Shown here piece by piece: positions 8,940 through 28,577 of a stretch of DNA of 46,806 nucleotides. Under the pieces are notes generated by a model that saw only the letters and a program-made list of their open reading frames with translations, searched no databases and was not told where the DNA came from. Origin of the DNA: Candidatus Argoarchaeum ethanivorans (lineage in GTDB: Archaea; Halobacteriota; Methanosarcinia; Methanosarcinales; EX4572-44). The stretch's first letter is position 1. Each line of letters opens with the position of its first letter. Where the stretch lies: positions 1 to 46,806 of the forward strand of contig CAJHIS010000004.1 of NCBI GenBank assembly GCA_905067555.1. Reading direction: 5' to 3'. A program made the position numbers and the translations under genes.

Positions 8940-9752
8940 GTGAATAAAGAAAAAATGGCAAAACTATTTGTACTGGGTATAATAGCGCTAACAGTGATGA
9001 CTGGAACAACAGTGGCATACAGTATCGATGGGGATCTTGATGATTGGGGTGTTAATCCTACTAATAACAGCTGGTATGCCACTCTCCCAGCCATGAGTGA
9101 AGTTGAGAACTGGCCTGGTGCCGGTGGTGACCCAGGCATCGAAGCGTGCGATATCGAAGCGATGTACGTGGATGAAGATGTAGTGGATGAAGATGTAAGT
9201 GGTCCATACATCTATATAGCGATCATCACATCGATGCCACCAGATGGTATAGATTACCCATGCGGTAGTAGCTCTATTCACCTTATATCTGGAGATTTAG
9301 CCCTTGACTTCGACAATGACGGCACCTATGAATACGGTATTAAACTGACAAATGATGGCAGGACTATAAGCGGTAGTATAGGAGATGTCTTTGGCAATCC
9401 AACGTGGGAGAAGATTACCACAGACTGTGCCCAGTCTCAGTTAGCCTTCAGTAATATGGTTAGCGGAACCTATACCGGGCATGCTGAGATTGTTTATCAA
9501 ATATATAGCGATTGGTCATGGGACAATGGTGCAGCCAACTATGTTATCGAGATGAAAATCCCCAAGTCAGCGCTCGGAATATCCGCTCCTGGCGAAGTTG
9601 ACCTGTGTGCTACTATAAGCTGTACAAACGATGTGATAACGATCGAAGACTTCCAATACAGTGAGATCCCAGAGTTTGCAACGATTGCACTACCGGTTTT
9701 ATCTGTGCTCGGGCTGTTCATGTTCTTCAACCGAAGACGAAATCAGAAATAA
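8940..9752 (+). CDS. PEF-CTERM surface protein 3
   Basis: I chose GTG 8940 because it aligns with the ATG of gene 2 after the same GAGGTGAT box; an in-frame GTG at 8931 would sit inside that box. The protein (about 270 residues) has a signal peptide ending near GTTVAYS. The ectodomain begins IDGDLDDWG and contains LALDFDNDGTYEYGIK and VIEMKIPKSALG. That pattern resembles the cellulose-binding/DOMON-like (CBM9-type) fold found in sugar-binding surface proteins; this is a tentative fold call. The PEF-CTERM signal EIPEFATIALPVLSVLG plus basic tail ends the protein. Carbohydrate binding would fit the neighbouring glycan clusters. Confidence 0.85.
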   Translation: MNKEKMAKLFVLGIIALTVMTGTTVAYSIDGDLDDWGVNPTNNSWYATLPAMSEVENWPGAGGDPGIEACDIEAMYVDEDVVDEDVSGPYIYIAIITSMPPDGIDYPCGSSSIHLISGDLALDFDNDGTYEYGIKLTNDGRTISGSIGDVFGNPTWEKITTDCAQSQLAFSNMVSGTYTGHAEIVYQIYSDWSWDNGAANYVIEMKIPKSALGISAPGEVDLCATISCTNDVITIEDFQYSEIPEFATIALPVLSVLGLFMFFNRRRNQK

Positions 9753-9761
9753 GTAACAGAT

Positions 9762-9781
9762 TTTGTGATCTTTATCACAAA
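9762..9781 (+). terminator. Hairpin after PEF-CTERM gene 3
   Basis: TTTGTGAT pairs perfectly with ATCACAAA around CTTT, and a TTTTTT stretch follows about ten bases later. It closes the tandem PEF-CTERM set. Confidence 0.5.
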
Positions 9782-9886
9782 TCCTGTAAATTTTTTACAT
9801 GCAAAATGCTGCTCTTGCAATATGTGCAGCACAGCAACATAGATAAATGAACTCATTTTCACCAAGTTTCTGGTTTGGACAAAATT

Positions 9887-10681
9887 TCAGATAATCCACG
9901 GCAAGACTGCGACTCCAATGGTAATGAGCCCGAGGATGATGCAGAACTTTGAAAAATTCAAACGCTCTGAAAACCTTAAAAGAACATCTATCGCGGCGTA
10001 GCCAGCAAGAAATGAAACAGAGATCATCACAATAGCATTTTCTAAAGATACTACTGGTTGAGAAGAGGATGTAAGAAGACTTAATGCAACAGCCCCCAGT
10101 ACTGCAGGAACACTGATCAGGAATGAGACCTCCAGTGCAGCCCTTTGATTCAACTTCCTGAGCAGTAAGAAAGTTATGGTTGTCCCGGATCGGGAAACAC
10201 CAGGAAGGATTGATAAACCCTGTGCAAGCCCAAGGAATATCATATCGCGCATCTTCATATCTTCTATCTGCTTGTATTTATCGATCGTTGAGTCCGGAGC
10301 CCTCAGAAGAATTCCAGTAAGTATAAGCATCAGCCCTATAAGAAACATGATAATATCGCCCTGATTGAAGCTTTTTAGAAGAAAGAAAAGCGGGACCCCG
10401 GTTATCCCTGTCGCAAGCGTTGAAATGACGATTATCCTTAAGAGAGTTTGATCAGACTTCGAGTGCCGTCCAATGACATTAAGAAATTTGATTCTGAACT
10501 TCAGGATAACGGCGAGCATGGTTCCAAGGTGTAGAAAGATCGCAAGAGAAAGCGCATCTGCAGGGCTAAGTCTAAGAAACTCCACCATGAATAACATAGC
10601 CTGCCCTTCACTACTTATCGGAAGCCACTCCACGATGCCCTGTATCAAACCCAGCAGAACCGATTGAATTAGCTCCATCAT
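9887..10681 (-). CDS. uppP: UppP/BacA-type polyprenyl-diphosphate phosphatase
   Basis: The 264-residue integral membrane protein carries both family motifs: GIVEWLPISSEGQ near residues 15-27 (Glu18, Ser23/Ser24) and PGVSRSGTT at about 161-169. UppP removes a phosphate from undecaprenyl diphosphate in bacteria. Archaeal members presumably recycle the polyprenyl or dolichyl carrier used in glycan assembly. The usual His in the first motif (SSxGH) is Gln here. The gene stands alone on the minus strand between PEF-CTERM genes and the glycan cluster, so lipid-carrier recycling for that cluster is a reasonable inference. Confidence 0.9.
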   Translation of the reverse strand: MMELIQSVLLGLIQGIVEWLPISSEGQAMLFMVEFLRLSPADALSLAIFLHLGTMLAVILKFRIKFLNVIGRHSKSDQTLLRIIVISTLATGITGVPLFFLLKSFNQGDIIMFLIGLMLILTGILLRAPDSTIDKYKQIEDMKMRDMIFLGLAQGLSILPGVSRSGTTITFLLLRKLNQRAALEVSFLISVPAVLGAVALSLLTSSSQPVVSLENAIVMISVSFLAGYAAIDVLLRFSERLNFSKFCIILGLITIGVAVLPWII

Positions 10682-13680: not shown

Positions 13681-14472
13681 ATGATTTTGAGAGATACCAT
13701 GAAAGAAAAAAAATATTTTCCCGATTTTGCAAATTCAACACCAATGGGGCACTATATTACTAATAGAGAAGAGGAAATTATTAATTTATACTTGGGAAAT
13801 AACCATGATAATAAAATTTACTTAGACGTTGGGGGTGGTAGTGGTAGATTTTCAGTTCCTTTTTTTAAAAATGGAGCCGATATCATTTGTTTAGATTATA
13901 ATTTAACTCCTCTTCAAATTCTTCAAGAGAAAGAGAGTTCAATACCTTTGACAAGAGGTGATGGTCAAAAACTTCCTTTCAGAGAATCCGTTTTTGATGC
14001 CATATTGATTATCGAAGCAATAGAGTACATGACTGATAAAAATCTTTTTATTAAAGAGTGCCATAGGGTACTAAAAGATGAGGGATTGTTATTGATTACG
14101 ATTTTAAATAGAAATAGCTACAAAATTCTCCATCCAAATCGTCGAAAGCGTCCTTCATTTTATTTCACTACATGTCGAAGTTTTGAAATAAAATTGGAGA
14201 GGTTAGGTTTTGTTATAGAAAAATCTATTGGATTCAACTGGATACCTGCAAAAAGAGCATCCAATAGCAAGTTGATACCTTACGCAGATGCATCCGGCGA
14301 TATATGGGAAGTCGGGGACGCAAAAAGAGCATCCAATAGCAAGTTGATACCTTACTTTGCAGCTTTAGAAAGACTCTTTAGATTAGAATATTTACCTTAC
14401 ATAAGCCCCTGGGTTTTCATTATAGCTAAAAAATATAAACGTAGTGACGCTTTAAGTATTCTACAAAAGTAA
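13681..14472 (+). CDS. Class I SAM-dependent methyltransferase with a 24-residue insertion
   Basis: Motif I is YLDVGGGSGRF (residues 48-58), followed by ICLDYN and RGDGQKLPFRESVFDAILIIEAIEY, typical of the Methyltransf_11 family. A second in-frame ATG at 13699 (MKEKKYF) is an alternative start. Near residues 190-225 the sequence AKRASNSKLIPY occurs twice, with ADASGDIWEVGD between. Removing 24 residues restores a continuous sequence from GFNWIP to FAALERLFRLEYL, so this is an insertion (see the repeat entry). The insertion is in frame, so the enzyme could still be made. It probably methylates a sugar or lipid-linked glycan, judged by context. Confidence 0.8.
   Translation: MILRDTMKEKKYFPDFANSTPMGHYITNREEEIINLYLGNNHDNKIYLDVGGGSGRFSVPFFKNGADIICLDYNLTPLQILQEKESSIPLTRGDGQKLPFRESVFDAILIIEAIEYMTDKNLFIKECHRVLKDEGLLLITILNRNSYKILHPNRRKRPSFYFTTCRSFEIKLERLGFVIEKSIGFNWIPAKRASNSKLIPYADASGDIWEVGDAKRASNSKLIPYFAALERLFRLEYLPYISPWVFIIAKKYKRSDALSILQK
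14248..14355 (+). repeat. Exact 36-bp direct repeat flanking a 36-bp insert
   Basis: Bases 14248-14283 and 14320-14355 are identical over exactly 36 positions, and the bases on both sides differ. Between them, 14284-14319 is also 36 bases long, about 58% G+C against 39% in the repeat, and resembles neither flank. The 72-base addition keeps the methyltransferase frame. This is a target-site-duplication geometry, not a simple tandem duplication. Confidence 0.95.
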
Positions 14473-23887: not shown

Positions 23888-26554
23888 GTGAAGATGCAGG
23901 ATATCGAAAAAGGGATACTCCAGAAAAATGATGTTCATTCATTTTTGGGAGTAGCTTTAGCTATTATCTGCTTTATACTGTTACTCGCTGGCATAAACGT
24001 AGCAGGCGCCACAGACTACTACGTATCAATATCAGGTGATAATACATATCAAGGAAACATCACACATCCATGGCAGAATGTTTCATACGCTACACAGCAG
24101 GCAACAGCGGGAGATACAATACATCTCTTCAATGGCACTTGGTACGATGAGCATGTTGTTTTTGCTAATTCCGGCAACGCTACACACCCGATTACAATGG
24201 ATATGCATAATGGTACGCCAACACTGGATGGCGCTGATAAATTGGGTATTGGAATTTATATTAATGGAAAGGATCACATACTAATTGACGGCATAAAGAT
24301 AGCTAATTACATGAATAGTTTAGATATAATCTCTCCATACGCAACCAGTATCACCATTAGGAATTGTGAATTTTCTGATGCTGGGATGAACGGGATGCTC
24401 GCAAGAACATCCAATCTAACCTTATATAATTGTACAGTCCACGATACGGGTGACCATGGACTATTAATCATAGATCACTCGATAGCGGAGAATCCTCGTT
24501 GCTTCAATAATAATATAAGCCATTGCACTGTTTACAACGCACCACACAACCTGATTGATATACATACAAGTGTGATGAACACAACGATTGAATACAATGA
24601 GCTATATTTTACAGATGACTATTCAGGATCAAAGCAAGTAGGGATTTATCTACATAATCATCATACACACAATACTATTGTAAGAAATAACAACCTTCAT
24701 GATCAACCCAGACCACTTGAAATCCTTAACTGCAATAACACATTAGTTGAAAATAACACATTTACGAATATTACAAACCGAGCCATAATGTTTTACGCGG
24801 ATATGCCACCATATATAGTAGATACTGCCACAATACGAAATAACACAGTCCAAGACTGTGCTGAAGGTTTTAGGTTCTTCTCTAATAACGTAAACTTCTA
24901 TGACATATTTTTTGACTCTAACATCATCTCCAATACTACCTATTATGAATATTACTTTGAATCCGGAACACTCGATAATATAACAATACGAGATAACTTA
25001 CCGATAGGAAATGTTTTATCACTTGGAGCGGGTTGGAATGAGACTGGTGACAATCAGGTCTTTGTTGAATATACTGATGGTCGAGTTTTTAAGAAGGAAT
25101 ATGGAATTGGTATACCGTATTGGTATCATGATAAGAGCGAAGTTCAAATGGAATTTATTCTCGGTGAGCAAGGAGCAGGGATGTATTCAAGAATAGATAT
25201 TACAACCTACAACATGACCGCAGTCCCAGTATCTGATTATATTACGATAATTGTGGACAAATTCAACACATCGTTTCCACAAGGACAAATATTGGTGGAT
25301 TTCACAGTAAACACGACTGATGGGAACAATGTGGACTTTACCATCTGGGGTTTAAAACCAAACTACTATTATCTAATCAAAAGAGACGATACGAACTTTA
25401 CCACAGAACACGCAAACTCTTCTGGCTATATCCAGTTCAACAATTCGGAATGGTCTGCACGTAGATTTACAATAGAAGAAGATAACATCCCACCAACAAC
25501 CACTGCTATAATTACACCGACTCCAAATGAAGCTGGATGGAACAATGCTCTAGCGGTGGTGACATTCTCACGTGGCGATAATGGAGGTTCTGGCGTTAAT
25601 TACACTAATTTATCGTCATCGCAAGAAATAGCTGTAAAAATTGACGGAGTTGATATTACAATCCCGAAAAAAGGAGAGGGCAACCTCACAATACCGTTAA
25701 ATGCATCTTACGGTGATTCGTTTAATGTAACGATATCCAACGAAGGAATTACAGAAATATGGGATTACTCAATAGACAATAACTCCAATGTCGAACTCAC
25801 AAAAAACGTAACTGTAAAGATAGACTTCACACCCTCTGTAACTTATTCAAATGTTACAGTACCAGATATAGCCAGCTATTCAGCCACCATTTTATGGACA
25901 ACTGATGAATTAGCTGATAGTTTGGTTAAATATGACACATTATCTGGTAGCTACACCAAAAATGCAAGCGATACGTCTTATGTAACTTCACATAACGTCA
26001 CTCTTACCGGATTAACACCAAACACAACTTATTATTTTGTTGTAAACAGCACAGACCAAGCAGGAAATTCCAATCAGAGCATTGAATACAACTTCACTAC
26101 GCTACTCTTTGGCACCATCTCAGGCAGCGTCACCCATACCTGTAACGAAACAGGAATTGCAGGAGTAGCTGTTAACCTCACTCAAAACGGAACTTCGATC
26201 AATTCGACAGTAACAGATAGCAGTGGTAGCTACACGTTCACTGACATTCCACTTGACACTTATAATGTAACAGCATCAAAAATCCGATTCTGGTCTAATT
26301 CAACCTCTGTGACTGTTAATAGTGGTGCCTGTATAATAACAAATCTTACTCTTTGGCTAAAGGGAGATCTAAACAATAATGGAATATCTGCTGATGGTGG
26401 AGATGGTGGAGATGTTACAGCAATGTGGAGTGCCTGGAGAGGAGAAATTACACCAGATTACAGATTTGATTTAAACAACAATGATGAACTTGCTGATGGT
26501 GGAGATGTTACAGCAATCTTGAGTGCTTGGAGAGGAGAAATTATATTAGAATGA
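23888..26554 (+). CDS. Secreted beta-helix protein with FN3-like, carboxypeptidase-regulatory and dockerin-like modules
   Basis: The 888-residue protein starts with a signal anchor (hydrophobic 18-41). A right-handed parallel beta-helix region (about 45-390) holds repeats of N-x-x-I/V-x-x-N, as in NosD/pectate-lyase-like proteins. Beta-sandwich segments follow, then an FN3-like domain (about 650-735), a carboxypeptidase-regulatory-like domain (about 745-815) and a C-terminal dockerin-like pair beginning GDLNNNGISADGG and DLNNNDELADGGDVTAILSA. I count roughly 40 N-glycosylation sequons by hand, fitting the adjacent glycan genes. Start is GTG 23888; ATG 23894 is possible. From 26136 the DNA is duplicated 2,023 bases downstream. 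Confidence 0.8.
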   Translation: MKMQDIEKGILQKNDVHSFLGVALAIICFILLLAGINVAGATDYYVSISGDNTYQGNITHPWQNVSYATQQATAGDTIHLFNGTWYDEHVVFANSGNATHPITMDMHNGTPTLDGADKLGIGIYINGKDHILIDGIKIANYMNSLDIISPYATSITIRNCEFSDAGMNGMLARTSNLTLYNCTVHDTGDHGLLIIDHSIAENPRCFNNNISHCTVYNAPHNLIDIHTSVMNTTIEYNELYFTDDYSGSKQVGIYLHNHHTHNTIVRNNNLHDQPRPLEILNCNNTLVENNTFTNITNRAIMFYADMPPYIVDTATIRNNTVQDCAEGFRFFSNNVNFYDIFFDSNIISNTTYYEYYFESGTLDNITIRDNLPIGNVLSLGAGWNETGDNQVFVEYTDGRVFKKEYGIGIPYWYHDKSEVQMEFILGEQGAGMYSRIDITTYNMTAVPVSDYITIIVDKFNTSFPQGQILVDFTVNTTDGNNVDFTIWGLKPNYYYLIKRDDTNFTTEHANSSGYIQFNNSEWSARRFTIEEDNIPPTTTAIITPTPNEAGWNNALAVVTFSRGDNGGSGVNYTNLSSSQEIAVKIDGVDITIPKKGEGNLTIPLNASYGDSFNVTISNEGITEIWDYSIDNNSNVELTKNVTVKIDFTPSVTYSNVTVPDIASYSATILWTTDELADSLVKYDTLSGSYTKNASDTSYVTSHNVTLTGLTPNTTYYFVVNSTDQAGNSNQSIEYNFTTLLFGTISGSVTHTCNETGIAGVAVNLTQNGTSINSTVTDSSGSYTFTDIPLDTYNVTASKIRFWSNSTSVTVNSGACIITNLTLWLKGDLNNNGISADGGDGGDVTAMWSAWRGEITPDYRFDLNNNDELADGGDVTAILSAWRGEIILE

Positions 26555-27855: not shown

Positions 27856-28577
27856 TATGGTATGTACCTGTACCACCAAACGTTACTTCCTTCGCGCCAG
27901 CAAACACGACCCCTTCGCAAGATGAGGGAACTACAAATACCTTCAATGTAACAATTGATCAGGTTGTATCGAATGCGTGGTATCTAAATGGCAATCAACA
28001 ACCTGAAACTTCGCAATCATTTACCCATACATGGACTTACACAGATGCGGGCGTACACAATATAACTTATGTTAGTGTAAATGTGAATGGAACAGCAATC
28101 AAAACATGGATGGTTACAGTTATTGATATATATGGTTCTATCTCCGGCATCATCACTAATACCTGTAACGAAACAGGAATTGCAGGAGTAGCTGTTAACC
28201 TCACTCAAAACGGAACTTCGATCAATTCGACAGTAACAGATAGCAGTGGTAGCTACACGTTCACTGACATTCCACTTGACACTTATAATGTAACAGCATC
28301 AAAAATCCGATTCTGGTCTAATTCAACCTCTGTGACTGTTAATAGTGGTGCCTGTATAATAACAAATCTTACTCTTTGGCTAAAGGGAGATCTAAACAAT
28401 AATGGAATATCTGCTGATGGTGGAGATGGTGGAGATGTTACAGCAATGTGGAGTGCCTGGAGAGGAGAAATTACACCAGATTACAGATTTGATTTAAACA
28501 ACAATGATGAACTTGCTGATGGTGGAGATGTTACAGCAATCTTGAGTGCTTGGAGAGGAGAAATTATATTAGAATGA
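27123..28577 (+). CDS. Chimeric secreted cohesin protein with dockerin-like C-terminus
   Basis: The 484-residue protein has a signal peptide (to about residue 26). A cohesin-like domain spans about 27-155 (KNTTISLPVNIVDTQNGVAG, GIEFELVYNKSVLNL, then an NNGTFTVL ending). Two Ig-like segments follow, then a carboxypeptidase-regulatory domain and the same dockerin-like pair as the upstream protein. Its first 244 codons match the next gene and its last 140 codons match the previous gene; only about 300 bases in between are unique. Cohesins bind dockerins in cellulosomes, so one chain carrying both could self-assemble. Start is GTG 27123 after AAAGGAG. The cohesin call is by motif; binding is untested. 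Confidence 0.75.
   Translation: MDSRRIKTALVVIFSVFAVTTLLALAQPTATKLYVEDASGYKNTTISLPVNIVDTQNGVAGIEFELVYNKSVLNLTQIRKGDLFDDSSSMLDKKGEQGDYTILVTGYSLTDGSNGSIVVCDFSITGEPGETSLVNLSNINLYNKMGETGTASANNGTFTVLTPLAPNINSFVPLSPVEDIVGSRRVFNLSVNQTVNVSWRINGTEVQTNTSVTESSYTNASAVIGTWNVSAIVMNQNGTDIQTWIWYVPVPPNVTSFAPANTTPSQDEGTTNTFNVTIDQVVSNAWYLNGNQQPETSQSFTHTWTYTDAGVHNITYVSVNVNGTAIKTWMVTVIDIYGSISGIITNTCNETGIAGVAVNLTQNGTSINSTVTDSSGSYTFTDIPLDTYNVTASKIRFWSNSTSVTVNSGACIITNLTLWLKGDLNNNGISADGGDGGDVTAMWSAWRGEITPDYRFDLNNNDELADGGDVTAILSAWRGEIILE

Follow-up and report, generated by a model that had tools for sequence, protein, structure and literature searches.

A repeat-sized target duplication around a spacer-sized, viral-looking insert in an archaeal methyltransferase gene: probable off-target CRISPR spacer integration

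How does a chromosomal gene come to carry an exact 36-bp duplication on either side of 36 bp that look foreign to it? The question is posed by a stretch of 46,806 nucleotides from Candidatus Argoarchaeum ethanivorans (hereafter, the window), within a gene for a SAM-dependent methyltransferase (13681..14472, + strand; 263 aa as listed; Methyltransf_11 match with E 1e-18; homologues L034 and L003). An inner ATG at 13699 is a possible alternative start of this gene, and its neighbours (FemAB-like, DegT-like, DUF354, glycosyltransferase and polysaccharide-export genes) make up a cluster of the surface-glycan type. Near the 3' end, the same 36-mer, GCAAAAAGAGCATCCAATAGCAAGTTGATACCTTAC, is found at 14248..14283 and again, as an exact duplicate, at 14320..14355 (both +), at a spacing of 72 (36+36) and with bases that differ at both borders of the pair. 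The 36 bp enclosed by the two copies (14284..14319, +) have a GC content of 58%, vs 31% for the gene without the insertion, and resemble neither flank. The reading frame of the 263-aa ORF is kept through the 72-bp gain; that the altered methyltransferase still works is an inference of ours. The initial annotation had described the exact duplication with mismatched borders, the GC-rich segment unlike its flanks and the retained frame, and all three were confirmed. The site is the sole non-tandem pair whose copies match exactly over at least 30 bp in the geometry scanned across the first 963 kb of the window's metagenome-assembled genome (MAG). A scan of its surroundings against Rfam gave no credible match.

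Insertion sequences and casposons also leave exact direct repeats around an insert. The insert in the window, unlike these elements, is without terminal inverted repeats and contains no gene. Known target duplications of these elements are much shorter than 36 bp, about 14 bp in the case of casposons. An insertion sequence or MITE was rejected as a candidate: the insert is unique in the MAG, where it occurs once, its longest stem is 4 and terminal inverted repeats are lacking. Allowing up to 3 mismatches, it was also absent from the other genomes of the class that were searched (238 in all).

An arrangement of this kind could be an old part of the protein, and the annotation had named relatives carrying the same 24 residues as the outcome that would refute an insertion. 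The relatives that we compared lack them. In the alignment, the homologues in G169 (53% identical) and G011 (45% identical) each show the motif once and miss exactly 24 residues; the segment is thus derived and not ancestral. This comparison with empty sites is made at the protein level, without a close empty allele at the nucleotide level; a search of the genome contigs for a close relative of the methyltransferase gene found none.

Integration of a CRISPR spacer at a non-CRISPR site was the explanation first put forward, and it calls for a duplication of repeat length and an insert of spacer length. Like its relatives, the MAG of the window (G000; 1.22 Mb in 84 contigs, 57% complete) encodes a methyl/alkyl-CoM reductase alpha subunit. 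No Cas1 was found in this 57%-complete MAG, nor a match to the Cas3 of G003 used as query, nor the repeat core of the genus type; no CRISPR array was seen in the about 1.18 Mb of it that were read (about 97% of its letters). Apparent arrays there were discarded, as they look like tandem or coding repeats. Cas1 is found in G001 and G003, of the same genus, and in G004, of the same family. Arrays in these three genomes have 37-bp repeats ending GGATTGAAAC, spacers mostly of 35-38 bp and a period mostly of 72-76, and the CRISPR locus of G003 is of type I-B, with Cas1, Cas4, Cas3, Cas5, Cas6, Cas7 and Cas8b. An apparent second repeat type, AATCCCTCTAAGGTCTGATTTTAAC, is also present in G003 (L132 529-621, G003:C6). 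Since its own MAG shows no cas1 or array, the repeat length of the window's host is inferred from its sister species. The proposed match to host repeat and spacer lengths holds, then, at the level of the genus, and its own MAG offers no array to compare.

With these lengths the site agrees closely: its 36-bp insert falls inside the spacer range of the genus, and its 36-bp duplication is one base short of the 37-bp repeat. The target itself is repeat-like in the + orientation. Like the genus repeats, it has G as its first base and AC as its last two, and its alignment to those repeats ranks in the top 0.05-1.7% of random 36-mers from the same genome (P 0.0005-0.017, depending on the repeat), in one orientation only. 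These probabilities cover the repeat alone, and for the leader side of the target we have no statistics. The site thus shares with canonical type I-B acquisition a 37-bp unit with a spacer of about 36 bp and the G...AC ends of the repeat, yet differs from it in being a single unit in a host gene, with no leader and a target that is only partly repeat-like.

If the insert is a spacer, what does it hold? Shifted by one base with respect to the host frame, it reads QMHPAIYGKSG, which with the next residue, T, makes a P-loop. A comparable P-loop reading arose in 0.045% of shuffled inserts, and IYGKSG in 0/60,000. The last 21 bases of the insert (14299..14319, +) are identical to the Walker A codons at L114:11262-11282, in the gene for an AAA_24 / Sak4-like annealing protein on IMG/VR contig IMGVR_UViG_3300031952_000036; a caveat to this match is that codons there are strongly conserved. 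The motif YGK[SP]G[TSA]G was absent from 963 kb of the window's own MAG and from 631 kb of G003, despite 17 and 14 other P-loops, respectively. IMG/VR had no exact match to the whole insert, to 20-21-mers from its 5' part and middle, or to the back-translated pattern MHPAIYGKSGT, and outside the 21 bases the insert had no match in the databases searched. Matches of the insert to phages and plasmids by blastn were dismissed as chance only. A search of this segment for a viral or plasmid origin hence succeeded in part, with an exact 21-nt match to a viral Sak4-like gene and no full-length source. The P-loop reading and this match give the insert the look of coding DNA from a virus; its full protospacer was not found in the collections searched. 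Since no database match covers the remainder of the insert, it is not assigned to a particular virus, and any exact attribution is inferred.

A second exact case was found in G003, where a 37-bp duplication with a 35-bp insert (L051 9152-9260, G003:C5) spans the start of cas6 in the type I-B locus, about 0.65 kb from cas1. In the orientation of the array, the duplicated target ends CCTTGAAAC (a TTGAAAC end), vs GGATTGAAAC for the repeat, and 7/8 of the last bases match; apart from this end, the whole target resembles the repeat only weakly (P 0.05-0.3). At the cas6 start of G004 the ATGCCCCTTGAAAC part is present once. The insert of this twin reads VMSEHLGRPLT and aligns in frame with a podovirus gene annotated as an HNH endonuclease (blastn against phages; 34 bases, 88%, E 7e-4). 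IMG/VR had no match to a 20-mer of this insert or to a back-translated HNH pattern. The twin adjoins two small extra genes in the cas operon, one of them nucleotidyltransferase-like.

The twin also bears on whether the window merely holds an assembly artefact or a strain chimera. A MAG in 84 contigs, 57% complete and without reads leaves room for one. Against it, no second copy of the insert exists in the MAG, the reading frame is intact, and the same geometry occurs independently in G003. We regard an artefact as very improbable.

Are these two sites isolated? We surveyed G000 over 1.19 Mb and G003 over 0.63 Mb (631 kb) for non-tandem duplicated segments flanking an unlike insert. At spacings of 70-74, G000 has 11 loci vs 1.7 expected from other spacings, and G003 has 8 vs 0.9; no locus at these spacings was found in E. 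coli (250 kb scanned) or in other loci (215 kb). Only spacing 70-74 was used, because spacing near 66 partly reflects apparent coding repeats. The duplication at the peak loci is most often of 36-38 bp and the insert of 34-36 bp, and AC borders are found at 10/19 of them, compared with 3/43 of the loci spaced otherwise (Fisher P 1.5e-4). Some caveats apply: both the 70-74 spacing window and the AC border motif were picked after seeing the data, the expected counts assume a flat background, some loci of G000 and G003 are orthologous (e.g. L059/L120 and L080/L155), and the survey is limited to two genomes of the genus.

This recurrence weighs on break repair or template switching, in which a staggered break would be filled, doubling 36 bp, and a 36-bp filler of foreign or host origin joined in. 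Such repair is able to yield duplicated flanks with filler, and the insert is indeed foreign-looking. It predicts, however, no preferred geometry of 36-38 and 34-36 bp and no repeat-like G...AC borders; the 70-74 excess in two genomes and the two spacer-length inserts of viral look are not predicted either. We consider this origin unlikely.

Several loci of the peak, on the other hand, have inserts with dispersed palindromes and not recognisable viral DNA. A short palindromic mobile element of this genus that makes unusually long target duplications (about 30-37 bp), with an enzyme other than Cas1 or its kin, would account for them, with the window as a variant: in G000 and G003 there are duplication-insert-duplication loci with dispersed hairpins such as CTGCACAACGAAGTTGTGCAG, some of them close to other dispersed copies. 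Since some inserts carry such palindromes, the element remains a rival. But the two exact cases, in the window and at cas6, are viral-looking and have no such hairpin, and the borders resemble the ends of CRISPR repeats. Nor do we know of any element that makes target duplications of 37 bp, which we also count against it, and overall we find this explanation quite unlikely.

We conclude that off-target spacer integration by Cas1-Cas2 is the likely origin of the structure in the window, with the enzyme and the exact source inferred, in the absence of read data. The explanation first proposed is therefore supported: the outcomes that would have refuted it and could be tested did not occur, and the cas6 twin of G003 and the genome-wide spacing excess with CRISPR-repeat-like borders add to it. 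The Cas1-Cas2 integrase of the lineage would have captured a viral piece of ~36 bp, from a gene for a Sak4-like P-loop ATPase, and misplaced it at a repeat-like site of the chromosomal methyltransferase gene. Both strands would be attacked about one repeat length apart, as in an array, and gap filling would then double the 36-bp target on either side of the new 'spacer', with the frame kept through the 72-bp gain. The same process would have occurred repeatedly in the genus.

Precedents for such events come from other settings. PMC11788318 cites Nivala et al. 2018 for over-expressed Cas1-Cas2 putting spacers outside arrays. Off-target sites of type II-A Cas1-Cas2 in vitro resemble the leader-repeat junction, with guanine preferred (PMC6895254). 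Like these cases of non-canonical integration, the window has a spacer-sized, foreign-looking insert outside arrays and repeat-like target borders, and the repeat-sized target duplication that is expected from the mechanism. Unlike them, obtained by over-expression or in vitro, the case in the window occurs naturally in an archaeon, in frame within a gene and with sister cases across the genus. The Cas1 of Sulfolobus islandicus binds stem-loops, and it has been proposed that an accessory factor keeps integration from occurring outside arrays (PMC9456107); by analogy, this work could bear on the palindromic inserts.

Most discussion of off-target integration has so far rested on over-expression and in vitro work. 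If true, a natural in-frame case, its cas6 twin and a genome-wide excess would mean that CRISPR adaptation can reshape the host chromosome outside arrays. Whether Cas1-Cas2 has done so as a recurrent and fixed process, scattering tens of 37+35-bp insertions of viral and host palindrome origin, some at positions shared between species, some as in-frame protein segments or gene starts, seems to us evenly balanced; the capture of palindromes in the other copies is inferred. A test usable on any genome follows from the survey: is there an excess of duplication-insert-duplication loci whose spacing equals the lineage's own repeat plus spacer?

Further duplications were observed along the way. L080 11252-11362 (G000) and L155 14666-14775 (G003) are at orthologous gene starts in the two species and have the same 38-bp duplication with different inserts of 34-35 bp. 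Another orthologous duplication, at L154 4876-4977 (G003) and L067 about 9750-10300 (G000), encloses 40 bp with one hairpin in the former and a longer insert with several hairpins in the latter. At L132 19182-19336 (G003:C6), a near-exact duplication of 58 bp flanks a 39-bp hairpin insert, exceeding the CRISPR geometry. The dispersed palindromes of G000 are of the CTGCACAACGAAGTTGTGCAG and TCGATTGCGAAGCAATCGA types, several of them between duplicated segments (e.g. L088 14654, L103 5834 and L108 744), and the palindrome core CAACGAAGTTGTG has 41 copies in 963 kb of this MAG. Within the window itself, 26402-26543 and 28425-28566 hold identical duplications with a 93-bp period, in stretches 2,023 bp apart, probably a duplication of a coding region.
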